NCBI GenBank assembly: GCA_023476565.1
Contig: JAMCVZ010000021.1
Coordinates: forward strand, 1 to 35,552
Reading direction: 5' to 3'
DNA length: 35,552 nucleotides
Origin: Nitrospirota bacterium
GTDB lineage: Bacteria > Nitrospirota > Thermodesulfovibrionia > Thermodesulfovibrionales > Dissulfurispiraceae
Position 1 is the first letter of the stretch, and every line of letters begins with the position of its first letter. This document shows positions 8,076-35,450 of the stretch, piece after piece. A program made the position numbers and the translations under genes. The notes below the pieces were generated by a model. That model was not told where the DNA came from. It ran no database searches and saw only the letters and a program-made list of their open reading frames with translations.

Positions 8076-9014
8076 ATGGCTTTTGTTGCCCCCAAAGAGA
8101 CTTATTCAGGTAAAGTATTTGAAGTTGCGATAGGGACCGGCAAGACGGTCGCATTCGGCGGAGAGAATGTGCTGCCGTTTAGTGCGTTTGAAGGAAATGT
8201 TCCCAACAGGCCCGTGGTAGCTTATGAGATCCAGGACATCCCGCCCGATGATTGGCCGGAAACGGTCAGGAAGGTTTACGAGGGAGTGTCCGGTGACCCC
8301 GTTACATGGGCAAAGCACTGCCAGGACAGACTTGGCGCGAAGGCTGTAGCCCTGAGGCTTTTGGGCACGCATCCGGACAGGAACAACCGTTCACCCGAAG
8401 AGGCTGCAAAGATCGTGAAGGATGTGCTCGCAGCCATAAATATTCCGCTTATCGTATTAGGCAGCAATAATGTTGACAAGGATTCCCTTGTCCTGGTCGC
8501 GGTTTCCGGGGCGGCCCAGGGCAGGAATTGCATCATCGGCAAGGCGCAGGAAGCCAATTACAAGACTATCGCCGCTGCCGCAATGGCAAACAACCACAAG
8601 CTCATAGCAATGTCCGAACTCGACATCAATCTCTCCAAGCAGCTCAATATCCTTATAACACAGATGGGTTTCGACAAGGAAAAACTGATAACGGATCCCA
8701 TGTGTTCGGCCCTCGGATACGGTATGGAATATACCTATTCGGTTATGGAGAGGATCAGGCTGGCCGCGCTTACGCAGAATGACACAACCATGCAGCCGCC
8801 TATGCTCGGCGACGTCGGCATGTATGTATGGAAGGTCAAGGAGACACAGGCCCTTGAGGCGGACCTTCCCAAGTGGGGCTCGCTCGAAGAGAGGGGCATA
8901 GCATGGGAAACGGCAACTGCCGGCGGCTTGCTTATAGCCGGCGCTGAACTCCTCATTATGAGGCATCCGGCTGCGGTCAAGGCAGTTGAAAAATTCATAG
9001 ATGAGCTGATGTAA
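8076..9014 (+). CDS. acsD: AcsD, small (delta) subunit of the corrinoid iron-sulfur protein
   Basis: 312 residues of the CdhD/AcsD family (TIM barrel). With AcsC it forms the corrinoid/Fe-S methyl carrier that takes the methyl group from AcsE to the A-cluster of AcsB. Family signatures include the start MAFVAPKETYSGKVFEV, VTWAKHCQDRLGAKAVALRL, LVLGSNNVDKDSLVLVAVS-like text in the middle, and DPMCSALGYGMEYTYSVMERIR. An AGGAGG site sits 6 bases before the ATG. The gene lies between acsE and acsC with repeat-filled gaps on both sides. No frame or motif damage is visible. Confidence 0.95.
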   Translation: MAFVAPKETYSGKVFEVAIGTGKTVAFGGENVLPFSAFEGNVPNRPVVAYEIQDIPPDDWPETVRKVYEGVSGDPVTWAKHCQDRLGAKAVALRLLGTHPDRNNRSPEEAAKIVKDVLAAINIPLIVLGSNNVDKDSLVLVAVSGAAQGRNCIIGKAQEANYKTIAAAAMANNHKLIAMSELDINLSKQLNILITQMGFDKEKLITDPMCSALGYGMEYTYSVMERIRLAALTQNDTTMQPPMLGDVGMYVWKVKETQALEADLPKWGSLEERGIAWETATAGGLLIAGAELLIMRHPAAVKAVEKFIDELM

Positions 9015-9018
9015 TGAA

Positions 9019-9098
9019 AAATTCTAAATTCAAAATATTAAATCCTAAACTGATTCTAAATTCAAAATTGTTTAGAGTTTGGTGCTTAGGATTTCGAA
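9019..9098. repeat. A/T-rich inverted heptamer repeat between acsD and acsC
   Basis: AAATTCT, AAATTCA and AAATATT, then AAATCCT and AAACTGA, run in exact seven-base register from 9019 to 9053. An AAATTCA copy lies at 9058. The complementary arm carries TTTAGAG, TTTGGTG, CTTAGGA and TTTCGAA from 9071 to 9098. It starts five bases after the acsD stop and ends just before the acsC ribosome site. Confidence 0.7.
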
Positions 9099-9114
9099 AT
9101 TGCAGGAGGATTGT

Positions 9115-10452
9115 ATGGCTCTGACAGGCGTTGAAATATTTAAATTGCTTCCAAAGACAAATTGCAAGAAATGCGGACACCCCACGTGTCTTGCTTTCGC
9201 TATGAAACTGGCCCAGAGGCAGGCATCGCTTGATGCATGCCCCGATGTTTCCGAAGAGGCCAAAAGGGTCCTCGGCGAGGCATCCGCTCCACCGGTGAGG
9301 CCGATAACGTTTGGCGCAGGTGACAGGGCGGTAAAGATGGGTGAGGAAACAGTCCTCTTCAGGCATGAGAAGAAGTTCGTCAACCCCAGTGCTTTTGCCG
9401 TCGAGATCAAAGATACAATGTCCGGCGACGAGATAAACAATATTGTTGAGGGCGTGTTGAATTCAGAAATAGACAGGGTCGGTCAGAAATTAAAGATCGA
9501 CGCCATATTCATCAGCAATGCATCAAATGATGCGGGGAAATTTGAAAGTGCCGTGAAAACAGTGGCAGGGAAAGCCCCGGCCGTTCCTCTAATTCTCTCC
9601 ACCTCCAACCCGGCGGCGGCAGAGGCTGCGCTCAAGGCGGCAGCCGGTAAGAGACCGATCCTTTATGGCGCGGATGAATCCAACGCCGATGCAATGGCTA
9701 ATCTGGCAAAGACCTTCAAGGTGACCCTCGGCGTTACCGCAAGATGCCTGGATGCGCTCCCGGCCCTTACGGAAAAGATAAAGGGCCTCGGCGTTGATGA
9801 TATGGTCATTGATCCGGGCGCCAGGACCGCAAAAGAGATTATTCAGGACAATACCCTCATCAGAAGGGCTGCGGTCAAGAAGAACTTCAAGGCCCTGGGC
9901 TATCCGGTGATTACCTTTGCCCAGAGGGATGACAATATGCTGGAGTTGCTCATCGCAGCTCTCGGCGTTGCAAAGTATTCATCGATTATCGTTATGAGCA
10001 GCATCGAAAAATGGAAGAACCTTGCGCTCTTCACCATGAGACAGAACATCTACACAGATCCGCAGGTGCCGATGCAGGTGGAGCAGAAGATATACAAGGT
10101 CGGGGAGCCGACCCCCGAGTCTCCGCTCATGATAACCACCAACTTCTCGCTGACCTACTTCATTGTCTCTGGCGAGGTTGAGAACAGCAAGGTGCCGTGC
10201 AGGCTTGCGGTTATGGACTGCGAAGGCTTATCGGTCCTGACCGGCTGGGCTGCGGGCAAATTCACCGCCTCGAAAATAGCGCAGTTCCTGCAGGAGAGCG
10301 GAATCGAGAACGAGCTTAAGAACAAGGAGCTGATTATCCCGGGTTATGTTGCGATACTGAGCGGCGCGATAGAGGAGAAACTCCCCGGCTGGAAGGTTAC
10401 GGTCGGCCCGCGAGAGGCTAACGCACTGCCTGCGTTCCTGAAGTCAAGATAA
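9115..10452 (+). CDS. acsC: AcsC, large (gamma) subunit of the corrinoid iron-sulfur protein
   Basis: 445 residues. The N-terminal [4Fe-4S] domain has the pattern C17-x2-C20-x4-C25-x16-C42, the spacing of the low-potential cluster that reactivates cob(II)amide. A TIM barrel follows (about 90-310) and then a C-terminal corrinoid-binding domain (about 320-445, with LAVMDCEGLSVLTGWAAGKF). Cobalamin is held base-off in this family. The start MALTGVEIF at 9115 follows GGAGGA and reproduces the family's usual N-terminus; an upstream GTG at 9079 lies in the heptamer repeat and is rejected. It acts with AcsD, AcsE and AcsB. Confidence 0.96.
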   Translation: MALTGVEIFKLLPKTNCKKCGHPTCLAFAMKLAQRQASLDACPDVSEEAKRVLGEASAPPVRPITFGAGDRAVKMGEETVLFRHEKKFVNPSAFAVEIKDTMSGDEINNIVEGVLNSEIDRVGQKLKIDAIFISNASNDAGKFESAVKTVAGKAPAVPLILSTSNPAAAEAALKAAAGKRPILYGADESNADAMANLAKTFKVTLGVTARCLDALPALTEKIKGLGVDDMVIDPGARTAKEIIQDNTLIRRAAVKKNFKALGYPVITFAQRDDNMLELLIAALGVAKYSSIIVMSSIEKWKNLALFTMRQNIYTDPQVPMQVEQKIYKVGEPTPESPLMITTNFSLTYFIVSGEVENSKVPCRLAVMDCEGLSVLTGWAAGKFTASKIAQFLQESGIENELKNKELIIPGYVAILSGAIEEKLPGWKVTVGPREANALPAFLKSR

Positions 10453-25347: not shown

Positions 25348-26217
25348 GTGAACCGGATACTTGTAATCGCCATGATTGTGTTTTTTTCAGGTTATGCGTA
25401 TGCAGCGGAACTGACCATAGGTCTTATCCCCGAGCAGAATGTCTTCAAGCAGAAGGAAAGATACAAGCCCCTCGGGGAGTATATCGAGAAGAAGACGGGG
25501 ATAAAAATCAAATTCACCATCCTGTCGAGGTACGGCAATATAATTGAAAGGTTCACCTCGGAAAAAATGGACGGCGCGTTTTTTGGCAGTTTTACCGGTG
25601 CGCTGGCAATCCAGAAACTGGGCGTTGAGCCGATCGCACGGCCTGTAAATCTCGATAATGCATCTACCTATTGCGGCTATATTTTTGTCAGGAAGGACAG
25701 CAGGATAAAGACGGTACACGATATGAAGGGGAAAAGACTTGTATTCGTTGAGAAGGCGACGACCGCGGGATATGCATATCCGATGTCCTATTTCAAAGAG
25801 CACGGCATAAATGATATCAACACATACTTCAAGGAATACTACTTTGCGGGGAGCCATGATGCGGCAATATATGCGGTTCTCAACAAGAAATCCGATATCG
25901 GGTGTGCAAAGCATTCCATGTTTGACAGGGTGGCACGCCGCGATCCGAGAATAGAAAAGGAGTTGACCATACTCGTAAAATCACCTGATGTGCCGTCGAA
26001 CGGCCTTGGTGTCAGAAGGGATCTGAGTGCTGCTGTGAAAACACAGTTAAGAAAAGTCCTCCTCGGCATGGATAAGGATCCGGAAGGTAAAGAGGTGCTT
26101 AAAAAGTTTGAGGCCATTGGATTTCTCCCAACCACAAAAGAGGACTATAAACCTGTATTTGATATTGCCCGCAAGGCCGGGATCGATATTAAAAACTACA
26201 AGTACAGGAACGAGTAG
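25348..26217 (+). CDS. PhnD-family periplasmic substrate-binding protein
   Basis: 289 residues with an N-terminal signal peptide (VIAMIVFFSGYAYA then AELTIGLIPEQ) and a periplasmic PhnD/phosphonate-type binding fold (EYIEKKTGIKIKFTILSRYG, GAFFGSFTGALAIQKLGVEP, DMKGKRLVFVEKATTAGYAYP). The family binds small oxyanion compounds such as phosphonates, phosphite or arsenite-like ligands; the ligand cannot be read from sequence. It starts at GTG after GGGGAGG. No ABC permease or ATPase follows; instead a hybrid sensor kinase starts 12 bases downstream, so the protein more likely serves as the kinase's ligand-sensing partner than as a transporter part. Confidence 0.85.
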   Translation: MNRILVIAMIVFFSGYAYAAELTIGLIPEQNVFKQKERYKPLGEYIEKKTGIKIKFTILSRYGNIIERFTSEKMDGAFFGSFTGALAIQKLGVEPIARPVNLDNASTYCGYIFVRKDSRIKTVHDMKGKRLVFVEKATTAGYAYPMSYFKEHGINDINTYFKEYYFAGSHDAAIYAVLNKKSDIGCAKHSMFDRVARRDPRIEKELTILVKSPDVPSNGLGVRRDLSAAVKTQLRKVLLGMDKDPEGKEVLKKFEAIGFLPTTKEDYKPVFDIARKAGIDIKNYKYRNE

Positions 26218-26229
26218 ACATACCGGCTG

Positions 26230-28530
26230 ATGAAAAGGAAGATTTTTTTATCGTTGCTTGCCGTCTTCATGCTCTTTACCGCCGGTGCGGTGGTTGCGAC
26301 GGTATACATAGCAAATACAACCGCCTCGCTGAGCGGTCTTATTCAGCTCCATCAGGTAGAGCACCTCAGGCAGCACCTGGTGATAAACGTTCAGACAGTC
26401 CAATCAGACCTCTATAGGGTCGGTACGCCGCTGGCTGAAAATCTTGATTCTATCATAAATAATGTGACCGCCCTCGATGATGCAACCCTGATGTGCAGCA
26501 CATGCCATCACTCTCCTGAGGTATCCAAACGCATAGATGAGCTCAAGACCCTGACCGAAGATTATAAGAACGCGCTGAGCTACTACATTACAGCGTCTGC
26601 TGACTCGAAGAGGATAGAAAAACTCAAACTGGACGCCGCAGGTGTGGGCGATAAGCTCCTCGGGCTCACACAGGATATGGCCTTTACTGCAAGCCAGCGG
26701 CTTCAAAAGATCACGACCCAGGCCCTTTCAAAGGTAAACGATGCAAAGGTAATCCTTTTTGTCACGCTTATATTGGCCTTCCTCCTTGCGCTTGTGGTCT
26801 CCGCACATCTGATCAAATTCATTACCCGTCCTGTGAGCGAGCTTATAAATGCAACAAGGGCGATAGCCTCCGGCGATCTCGGATATGCCATCTCATACAG
26901 GGACAACACCGAGTTCGGGGAGCTTGCCGTCAACTTTAACGCTATGAGCTCAGCGCTTAAAGAGGGGTATGAGAATATATACAGACAGCAGCAGAAGATT
27001 AAAGAGAGCGAATGGAAGTTCAGGACCCTCTCCGAGTTTGCTTATGACTGGGAATTCTGGATCGGTGAGAACAGGGAAATAATCTTTATGTCCGCATCCT
27101 GCGAGCGTATCACCGGATATTCCCAGGAAGAGTTCATAAAAACCCCCGAACTCTTATGCGGGATCGTGCACGAAGAGGACAGGGCCGTATGTGAAATTCA
27201 CATGAACGACCTGGCAGCGGCGCGCCATGAAGAAATGGAGTTCCGGATTATCGCGAAGAACGGACAGGCGAAATGGCTGTCCCATGTATGCGGCCCGATT
27301 TACGTTGAAGACAGGTTCCTCGGCAGACGTGTCAGCAACAGGGATATTACAGACAGAAAGAGGCTGGAGGAGCAACTGGGGCAGTCGCATAAGATGGAGT
27401 CACTCGGCCTTCTGGCCGGAGGCATTGCCCATGATTTCAACAATCTGTTGACGTCTATTACAGGGTATTCCTCATTGCTTGAACAGGAACTGAGCAATAG
27501 CGATGAAAGGACAAAGAGGTTTGTAAGGCAGGTGCTGAGCGCATCAGAAAAGGCCCGGAACCTGACCTCGAGCCTTCTGGCCTTCAGCCGCAAGCAAATT
27601 ATGAAGCCCAGTACAATAAACCTGAATGAGGTCATCAGGAATATATCGGGGCTGCTGAAGAGCCTGATCGGAGAGGATATAGAACTCATAATAAGCTGCT
27701 CGGAAACAGAGTTCCCGGTTTTTGCGGACCCCCATCAGATAGAGCAGGTTATCATGAATCTTGTGACCAATGCCCGGGATGCAATGCCGTCCGGCGGAAG
27801 GCTCGCCATAGGGACGAGTTCCATGGTGCTTCATTCTGAATTTGCCGGCAGATACGGGGCGAAGCCCGGGAAGTACATGGTGCTGTCAGTCAGCGATACG
27901 GGCATGGGCATAGACGGCAAGGACCTCCCCCATGTATTCGACCCGTTCTTCACGACAAAGGAAAAGCACAAGGGAACGGGCCTCGGGCTTGCCATGGTGT
28001 ACGGGATAATCAAGCAGCATGGGGGTTTTATCGACGTCTACACCGAGAAGGACTGGGGAACGACGTTCAAGATATACCAGCCTGCGTCAGAGGAACTGAA
28101 AGGCGGGAGCCAGGAGGAAACCGGAATGCCTGCGGCCAAACCGGATTTCAGGGGCAGTGAGACAATATTTATTGCGGAAGATGAAGAATCCGTCAGAGAG
28201 TTTATGAAGGATGTTCTTGAAAGTTACGGGTATAAAGTGATTCTTGCAGTCGATGGAGTCGATGCCGTAAAAAAATATGATGAAAACAGGGATGCCATCA
28301 ACATGGTTATCCTGGATGTGGTTATGCCCGGAAAGAACGGGAAAGAGGTCTATGTCCATATAAAGGAAATAAGCCCCGGAATTAAAGCGCTCTTCATGAG
28401 CGGATATACACAGGACATACTAACCTCCAGAGGGATTTATGAGGAAGGGCTGGAATTTATATCTAAACCCCTGGATATGCAAAGCCTGATGACCAAGATC
28501 AGGAGTATTCTCGATAAACGCGATATTTAG
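26230..28530 (+). CDS. Hybrid sensor histidine kinase with periplasmic c-haem motif, HAMP, PAS and receiver
   Basis: 766 residues. A first membrane helix (about 5-28) leads into a helical periplasmic domain holding C89-S-T-C92-H93, a CxxCH c-type haem attachment motif. The second membrane helix lies about 172-193. Then come HAMP (to about 247), PAS (about 260-375, RTLSEFAYDWEFWIG), HisKA with phospho-acceptor H401 (GGIAHDFNN), HATPase_c (NLVTNARDAMPSGG, DTGMGID, GTGLGLAMVYGI) and a C-terminal receiver with D696 (VILDVVMPG). The output may be phosphotransfer only, since no response regulator with DNA-binding domain is adjacent. Haem could sense redox state or a gas, and the neighbouring binding protein a ligand. 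Confidence 0.9.
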   Translation: MKRKIFLSLLAVFMLFTAGAVVATVYIANTTASLSGLIQLHQVEHLRQHLVINVQTVQSDLYRVGTPLAENLDSIINNVTALDDATLMCSTCHHSPEVSKRIDELKTLTEDYKNALSYYITASADSKRIEKLKLDAAGVGDKLLGLTQDMAFTASQRLQKITTQALSKVNDAKVILFVTLILAFLLALVVSAHLIKFITRPVSELINATRAIASGDLGYAISYRDNTEFGELAVNFNAMSSALKEGYENIYRQQQKIKESEWKFRTLSEFAYDWEFWIGENREIIFMSASCERITGYSQEEFIKTPELLCGIVHEEDRAVCEIHMNDLAAARHEEMEFRIIAKNGQAKWLSHVCGPIYVEDRFLGRRVSNRDITDRKRLEEQLGQSHKMESLGLLAGGIAHDFNNLLTSITGYSSLLEQELSNSDERTKRFVRQVLSASEKARNLTSSLLAFSRKQIMKPSTINLNEVIRNISGLLKSLIGEDIELIISCSETEFPVFADPHQIEQVIMNLVTNARDAMPSGGRLAIGTSSMVLHSEFAGRYGAKPGKYMVLSVSDTGMGIDGKDLPHVFDPFFTTKEKHKGTGLGLAMVYGIIKQHGGFIDVYTEKDWGTTFKIYQPASEELKGGSQEETGMPAAKPDFRGSETIFIAEDEESVREFMKDVLESYGYKVILAVDGVDAVKKYDENRDAINMVILDVVMPGKNGKEVYVHIKEISPGIKALFMSGYTQDILTSRGIYEEGLEFISKPLDMQSLMTKIRSILDKRDI

Positions 28531-34893: not shown

Positions 34894-35154
34894 CTATCGG
34901 TAAACCTCTTTTCGGTGAGCTATCCGGAATATTTTCACTTGCTTGAGAGAATCATCAATTTCGTAAAGTATTCTGTAGTCGCCGACTCTGATGCGCCATC
35001 GCGATCCCGAACCAACCAGCTTCTTGGTTTTTGAAGGCCTCGGTTGATCATACAGGCCCATGATTATCTTCTCAAGTCTCGCTAACATCTCTCCCGAAAG
35101 ATCATCAAGGTCTTTCTGCGCCTGCGGCATGAGTTGAACATTATAGGAACTCAT
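34894..35154 (-). CDS. RelE/ParE-family toxin
   Basis: 86 residues of the RelE/ParE fold: VQLMPQAQKDLDDLSGEMLAR at the N-terminus, then KKLVGSGSRWRIRVGDYRIL and YEIDDSLKQVKIFRIAHRKEVYR at the C-terminus. The R-x-R-V-G-D-Y-R-I-L-Y-E core and terminal HRKEVYR are typical of RelE-like mRNA interferases. Its ATG overlaps the upstream antitoxin stop by four bases, which is usual for such pairs. The toxin would be held inactive by the protein encoded at 35151. Location beside a tRNA attachment remnant fits a mobile-element cargo gene. Confidence 0.9.
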   Translation of the reverse strand: MSSYNVQLMPQAQKDLDDLSGEMLARLEKIIMGLYDQPRPSKTKKLVGSGSRWRIRVGDYRILYEIDDSLKQVKIFRIAHRKEVYR

Positions 35155-35372
35155 TTATCGTGGGACTTTCTGCGTTTCTGGAAATATTCCTTAGCTGCAA
35201 TGGGCTTGCCTTTAACCTTTTTTGCCTCCTCAATCAGGGCCATATCTATGATATCTTGCCGTAACGCGGAATTTCGCAGTATCTTTTCGAGAAAAGCTTC
35301 TTTCTCATTACTTTTGAGAGACTTGAAAGCCGTGAAAAAAACCTCGGCAGTTGCCTGACTTGTTGTCATCAT
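35151..35372 (-). CDS. Probable antitoxin partner of the RelE-like toxin
   Basis: 73 residues starting MMTTSQATAEVFFTAFKSLK, mostly helical and charged, with a basic tail (KEYFQKRRKSHDK). The start is set by GGAGGTGAA before two tandem ATGs; an upstream frame extension to 35438 lacks a ribosome site. I do not recognise a clear DNA-binding domain, but size, position and the four-base overlap with the toxin start make an antitoxin the likely role. Confidence 0.75.
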   Translation of the reverse strand: MMTTSQATAEVFFTAFKSLKSNEKEAFLEKILRNSALRQDIIDMALIEEAKKVKGKPIAAKEYFQKRRKSHDK

Positions 35373-35450
35373 TTCACCTCCGGCTTGAAAGCTTAGTGCT
35401 GAGAAATTGTTTTTCTGTTTCTTGTCACTGCTGTCCAAGATAATCTGAAT

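Follow-up and report, generated by a model that had tools for sequence, protein, structure and literature searches.

What does a solute-binding protein do when no transporter is encoded beside it and its gene instead runs almost directly into that of a sensor kinase? The question is posed by a gene pair in a 35,552-nucleotide stretch of DNA (the window), which is the entire contig C44 of a Nitrospirota genome of 2.67 Mb in 73 contigs. A sequence-only reading of the window had described a PhnD-type periplasmic protein followed, 12 bases on, by a kinase with CxxCH in its periplasmic domain, and Pfam and the sequence bear this out. The phnD-type gene (positions 25348-26217, plus strand, as for all features of the pair) starts with GTG, stops at 26215-26217, and encodes 289 residues with an N-terminal signal peptide, recognized by eye, and a full-length match to PF12974 (Phosphonate-bd, 1.8e-61, residues 24-267); this secreted solute-binding protein is the "X" partner. 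After the 12-base gap (26218-26229), an ATG at 26230 opens the gene of the "S" partner, a hybrid histidine kinase of 766 residues (26230-28530) in which Pfam finds HAMP, PAS_3, HisKA, HATPase_c, and Response_reg domains. As outlined below, the pair probably represents a conserved XS-type sensing module with a covalent-haem helical sensor.

Pairing of the binding protein and the sensor

Searching 295 Nitrospirota genomes with kinase residues 1-216 located the sensor domain in 77 of them. Among 123 loci in this phylum, comprising the window and 122 match places (with G182:C75 and G176:C86:110816 outside the count), 79 carry a phnD open reading frame (ORF) directly upstream on the same strand; the median gap is -1 base, and it lies within 30 bases in 66 of the 79. 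The arrangement recurs in a second phylum, to which the Geobacter metagenome-assembled genome L003 belongs. Here, at a cut-off of E <= 1e-10, 30/297 genomes match the sensor domain, and 20 of the 37 match rows, the ten weakest of which are partial matches, were taken as loci; phnD is directly upstream of the sensor in 17 of these 20. Conserved pairs, a prospect raised by the sequence-only reading, are therefore a feature of both phyla.

The association extends beyond adjacency. With alignment A2 as query and a cut-off of E <= 1e-60, the PhnD subfamily was found in 73 genomes of the same 295-genome draw: 71 hold both it and the sensor, 6 the sensor only, 2 the PhnD only, and 216 neither, counts on which a Fisher test disregards shared ancestry. 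One of the two PhnD-only genomes is G014, whose sensor is decayed. Across the 79 pairs, sensor distances follow PhnD distances with a Mantel r of 0.677, the maximum of 2000 permutations being 0.21, and in same-genome comparisons, which are not independent of one another, true partners fit better than swapped ones in 20/20. On a 119-row sensor tree, 15 changes are needed to explain which sensors have phnD next to them and which do not. Eight genomes with lone sensors (G124, G186, G213, G223, G253, G259, G273, and G287) each keep a PhnD of the subfamily elsewhere, and around these displaced copies there is no PhnE-like, ABC-ATPase-like, or kinase-like ORF; three more (G140, G152, and G201) have distant PhnD relatives only. 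An apparent PhnD-sensor fusion at L201, an open frame of 1111 residues, was rejected as merely a stop-free stretch upstream of the kinase. Upstream of phnD in 23 loci (L111:396-3337 and its relatives) is a protein of the ABC_sub_bind type (PF04392), preceded in six of them by a weak match to the MtrB/PioB barrel, as judged from Pfam on one representative of each; the two may supply an additional binding protein and an outer-membrane component.

That the PhnD-type protein lacks transporter partners, another claim of the sequence-only reading, holds across the family. No PhnE-like ORF occurs in 124 loci (the window, L002-L004, and L034-L153), and ABC-ATPase-like ORFs appear in only 2/80 paired loci (the 79 plus L003), namely L038 and L039, in both cases more than 2 kb away. 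With that exception, and unlike the PhnCDE and PtxABC transporters, PhnD proteins of the window type have no ABC permease or ATPase genes beside them; locus L183 of a relative, which reads phnC-phnD-phnE, illustrates by contrast a true transporter arrangement. A Pfam scan of the neighbors found no transporter gene adjoining the window pair, which is flanked by scpA upstream and by a Glu/Leu dehydrogenase-family gene downstream on the opposite strand.

The window protein is one of several PhnD-type proteins in its genome. Seven PF12974 matches exceed the cut-off there. One is the window protein, five come from four further PhnD-type proteins (one of them has two PhnD domains), and the last is a protein judged by eye to be NMT1/SsuA-like, which adjoins two ABC permease-like genes. 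Read from their sequences, the genes after each of the four further proteins encode a histidine kinase and then a response regulator of the sigma-54 type. CxxCH is absent from the kinases of those four sets and from the signaling proteins beside PhnD in L178-L182, so that the haem motif distinguishes this sensor class and is not general to PhnD-partnered kinases.

Several other PhnD arrangements came to light. The tandem-domain protein of the window's own genome (529 residues; L172:16685-18271, contig C63) precedes its kinase and sigma-54-type regulator near genes that, by sequence, are of the molybdopterin oxidoreductase and ferredoxin types. At L171:8869-9933 (same genome, C23), a protein combining PF11845 (Tll0287-like, a c-haem Cache domain) with HisKA lies just upstream of another PhnD-kinase-regulator set, and would be a second way of joining haem and PhnD at one locus. 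Two chemoreceptors (L217:4124-7057 in G253 and L218:4487-7351 in G287) carry HAMP, MCPsignal, and a C-terminal PF12974 domain (residues 709-946 and 705-942, respectively), an odd position for a solute-binding domain, after the cytoplasmic signaling domain; CxxCH occurs somewhere in both frames. Finally, a hybrid kinase in G154 (L219:5894-8677) with HAMP, HisKA, two receiver stretches, and Hpt is possibly a haem-free version.

The haem motif and the predicted helical sensor domain

The motif itself, CSTCHH (residues 89-94; 26494-26511), lies in a periplasmic domain, predicted to be helical, of about residues 29-171 (26314-26742) flanked by two transmembrane (TM) helices. Whether it is conserved in orthologues was a point on which the sequence-only reading could have failed; CxxCH is present in 120/123 Nitrospirota loci and 20/20 loci of the second phylum, and the longer CxxCHH in 109/123 and 19/20, respectively. 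The three Nitrospirota loci without CxxCH are L110 (CANACHH, a CX3CH form), L152 (a weak 99-bit match), and L153 (a 120-residue fragment). In a 121-row alignment that leaves out matches below 90 bits as well as L002 and L004, both of which are in the 123-locus count, C89 is kept in 119 rows, C92 and H93 in 120 each, H94 and Arg47 in 112 each, and His41 (26350-26352) in 106. Across 24 diverse members only C89, C92, H93, G140, and L205 are invariant. The 23 members aligned to the window's sensor domain share only 20-57% identity with it, and in so divergent a family the conservation of the haem motif goes far beyond chance.

Loss of the motif is also instructive. Genome G014, a single contig, has a sensor frame shortened to 191 residues with CMQYY at the place of the motif (L175:5782-6354): the haem motif decays where the sensor gene decays. 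The phnD frame next to the decayed one is intact, and a multihaem cytochrome stretch lies nearby. A CxxCH in a secreted protein is normally haemylated by systems of the ResB/CcsA type, and the means for haem attachment are present in the host, since ResB and CcsA/Cytochrom_C_asm genes are found in the window genome.

Ahead of HAMP, in residues 1 to about 190, a Pfam scan of the kinase matched no family. Among 24 sensor members Pfam returned only HAMP in 5 plus scattered weak single-member matches, and no Pfam or NCBIfam model was found for the domain. PF11845 is matched neither in the window kinase nor in any of the 24 sensor domains; the same library does find it in the L171 protein (8869-9933). 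AlphaFold2, run with four sequences, places helices at residues 2-60, 68-88, 96-121, and 126-213 (mean pLDDT 67.6, pTM 0.49), from which the periplasmic domain is predicted to be a four-helix bundle with a NarQ-like fold. On this model the chain would rise from TM1 as helix 1, return as helix 2, rise again as helix 3, and descend as helix 4 into TM2. The CxxCHH loop (89-95) would then sit close to the membrane, at the same height in the bundle as His41 of helix 1, making that residue a candidate second axial ligand. Foldseek ranks NarQ first for the model (5jeq, E 4.7e-4) and places Adeh_2942 among its leading matches; VIA-align superposes 157 residues on NarQ 6xyn at 2.4 A (Z 13.7), a Z that unrelated bundles equal. 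Profile comparison by hhalign aligned the sensor to NarQ only at residues 165-216 (TM2/HAMP), with no sequence similarity in the periplasmic part, and a comparison with the TorS profile detected nothing; we therefore claim descent from neither.

Ligand class, known systems, and rival explanations

The nearest solved chain to the binding protein is PtxB (5o2j, 1.2e-30), followed by PhnD, then ArrX and AioX. An AlphaFold2 model of the protein, also built with four sequences, reached a mean pLDDT of 53.7 and was not used, and the pocket is instead described from an alignment of 78 members (matches below 250 bits and loci L002 and L004 left out), with residue equivalences taken through PhnD and from PMC5908839. 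The oxyanion cradle is partly kept: Tyr62 in 77, Thr138 in 73 (Ser in 4), His170 in 72, Thr83 in 68, and Tyr108 in 50. The position of AioX Cys106, which the same source equates with PhnD Gly65 (PMC5908839), is Gly80 in the window protein (Gly in 70/78, Cys in 0/78), and that of AioX Asp210 is Lys188 (Lys in 68/78). Because the cradle is partly kept and Gly80 and Lys188 replace Cys106 and Asp210, the pocket residues suggest an anionic ligand and argue against an AioX-like specificity for arsenic. Searched against plasmids, the protein returned relatives below 60% identity, among the matches listed mostly annotated as phnD transport proteins.

How new is such a device? TorT-TorS is an established case of a binding protein acting with a hybrid kinase that has a helical periplasmic domain; to our knowledge it involves neither haem nor the PhnD family, and the TorS sensor domain has no detectable sequence similarity to the window sensor. 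In AioXSR, ArxXSR, and ArrXSR, a PhnD-family protein is combined with a histidine kinase, and X is thought to activate S when ligand-bound (PMC5908839). The window pair shares with them a PF12974 periplasmic protein gene adjoining a membrane histidine kinase gene with no transporter, and differs in its Gly80/Lys188 pocket, haem-motif helical sensor, hybrid kinase, and lack of an adjacent R, a comparison made on the X sequences and on the gene and domain plan. A PhnD-like domain serves as histidine kinase input for sulfur oxyanions in TtrS and ThsS (PMC5408782), where it is part of the kinase and no separate haem sensor domain is noted in the accessible text, unlike the separate genes of the window. 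For docking of this general kind, QseG-QseE, in which an accessory lipoprotein drives a histidine kinase, provides a model (PMC12691602).

On the haem side, the sCache_heme or Tll0287-like domains (PF11845), frequent in Nitrospirota and Desulfobacterota, place CxxCH in the sensor domains of membrane kinases and are proposed to sense NO or redox state (PMC12889525, a 2026 preprint). They too have CxxCH in a kinase sensor domain, but theirs is inserted into a Cache fold, whereas the window domain, without a PF11845 match, is predicted to be all-helical with the motif in the loop from helix 2 to helix 3. The chemoreceptors GSU0582/GSU0935 of Geobacter and DcrA hold covalent haem in a periplasmic sensor domain (PMC8396549); unlike the window kinase, these receptors have chemotaxis output, the Geobacter pair has a PAS-like fold, and no binding-protein partner is described in the accessible text of that source. 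NarQ/NarX and Adeh_2942 have a periplasmic up-down four-helix bundle between two TM helices (PMC8199190, PMC3831638), the plan predicted for the window domain, and the same accessible texts mention no haem motif in them. In full-text literature, outside which most subscription journals lie, no description of a helical c-haem sensor domain, or of its pairing with a PhnD-type protein, was recognized. The sequence-only reading, which knew of no described system with this exact pairing, thus needs narrowing: the general X and S plan, PhnD-like kinase inputs, and c-haem Cache or PAS sensors are already known, and, as far as the literature searched shows, the novelty lies in the probable c-haem helical domain of the sensor.

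We consider it reasonably likely that the pair is an X-S sensing module in which the ligand-loaded PhnD-type protein acts on a covalent-haem helical kinase sensor, so that a chemical signal and a redox or gas signal are combined. In this scheme X would be a secreted solute-binding protein released from its transport role, and in its loaded state, with a small anion bound, it would dock on the periplasmic four-helix bundle of S. Near the membrane the bundle would carry a single c-type haem, covalently bound; His93 would be the proximal ligand and His41 probably the second, and redox state or a gas such as NO would modulate the same helices. Several observations weigh against so simple a picture. 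Adjacent phnD is missing from 44/123 sensors (6 of them less than 1 kb from the end of the fetched stretch), and in 6/77 sensor genomes no PhnD of the subfamily passes the cut-off, so a PhnD partner is not required in every case; in G154 a PhnD of the subfamily adjoins a kinase with only a weak match to the sensor profile. His41 is not the ligand in all members, because close relatives of the window (L094, L096, and L097) have Tyr there, and a seven-member subclade keeps CxxCH without His41, His94, or Arg47. The sensor model is of middling confidence in both pLDDT and pTM, Z values of 13-16 are common among helical bundles, and no response regulator or target operon adjoins the window pair.

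The motif could have a use other than haem: in CxxCHH, the Cys pair and the His pair might bind a transition metal or form a thiol-disulfide redox switch, with the PhnD-type protein supplying the chemical signal. H94, so widely kept, has no necessary part in c-type haem binding, and a metal site could well use it. Yet the C-x2-C-H spacing is strict in the 120 loci that have it while the x residues vary, a single variant reading CX3CH, and the seven-member subclade retains CxxCH where H94 and H41 are lost; what the family keeps is the haem-c signature. Together with the attachment genes of the host, this makes a haem-free site unlikely. The helical domain might instead sense the ligand itself, as NarX and NarQ do, Arg47 of helix 1 binding the anion, haem tuning the response, and PhnD raising the local ligand concentration or adding a second ligand. 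The NarQ-like structural matches, the retention of Arg47, and the unpaired sensors would fit; but similarity to NarQ in sequence is confined to TM2/HAMP, the equivalence of Arg47 with NarQ Arg50 is uncertain, and PhnD, co-occurring in 71 of the 77 sensor genomes, is too tightly associated for an optional helper. We therefore regard direct sensing by the bundle as unlikely.

Two further explanations retain very little probability. One, that the PhnD-type protein scavenges for a distant ABC transporter and sits before the kinase incidentally, draws on the wide annotation of PF12974 proteins as transport proteins and on nearest solved relatives that belong to phosphite and phosphonate transporters, but is opposed by the pairing, the co-occurrence, the co-variation, and the absence of transporter neighbors. 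The other, an arsenic-oxyanion XSR system with an AioX or ArrX orthologue, would account for the shared PhnD superfamily, the X-S gene order, and the ArrX and AioX chains that turn up in PDB searches; with no Cys among the 78 aligned members at the Cys106 position, Lys188 at that of Asp210, and PtxB and PhnD chains outscoring both ArrX and AioX, it is most improbable.

Signal output and significance

For the preferred two-signal module, the domain order of the kinase suggests a route inward. From TM2 the signal would pass through HAMP (residues 194-244; 26809-26961; PF00672, 1.1e-11) and the cytoplasmic PAS domain (284-361; 27079-27312; PF08447, 2.1e-13) to the phospho-acceptor His401, assigned by its H-box position in HisKA (27430-27432; PF00512). 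With the HATPase_c domain (500-619; 27727-28086; PF02518, 1.3e-21) following, the phosphoryl group would move to the kinase's own C-terminal receiver (646-758; 28165-28503; PF00072, 9.5e-19), on Asp696 as identified by position, and from there onward to an unlinked phosphotransfer partner.

The sequence-only reading had looked to a cognate regulator. None stands beside the window pair, but the relatives are more forthcoming: in 36 of the 114 surveyed (8 loci without a usable gene model left out), the same-strand gene that comes next opens with a receiver domain. Going by motifs alone, we take 28 of the 36 to be AAA+ regulators and 8 to resemble receiver-GAF-HD-GYP proteins; Pfam confirmed the AAA+ regulator in the one member submitted, that downstream of the sensor at L053. 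In 22 of the 28 AAA+ regulators (L053:6746-8134 and 21 other downstream genes), loops read directly have GAFTDA or GSFTDA in place of GAFTGA. At L145 the regulator is followed by a multihaem cytochrome gene, the second gene downstream of the kinase. Elsewhere in the window, two adjacent small ORFs of 95 and 86 residues (34894-35438, minus strand) look by eye like a RelBE-type antitoxin-toxin pair.

A more ambitious proposal can be put forward tentatively, at somewhat less than even chance: that an undescribed four-helix c-haem domain family and a dedicated PhnD protein make up a two-input device that fires only when a particular oxyanion and the right redox or NO state coincide, by which Nitrospirota and the second phylum would choose among respiratory pathways. 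The conserved CxxCH, His94, His41, and Arg47, along with the PhnD pocket and its Lys188, provide testable handles on the system. The sensor domain occurs in about a quarter of the sampled Nitrospirota genomes and in part of a second phylum, yet without a Pfam or NCBIfam model that we could find. Should the haem be confirmed, sensing by c-type haem would extend past the Cache and PAS folds to helical bundles, and the pair would be a natural example of a single kinase that takes input from both a soluble binding protein and a covalent cofactor.

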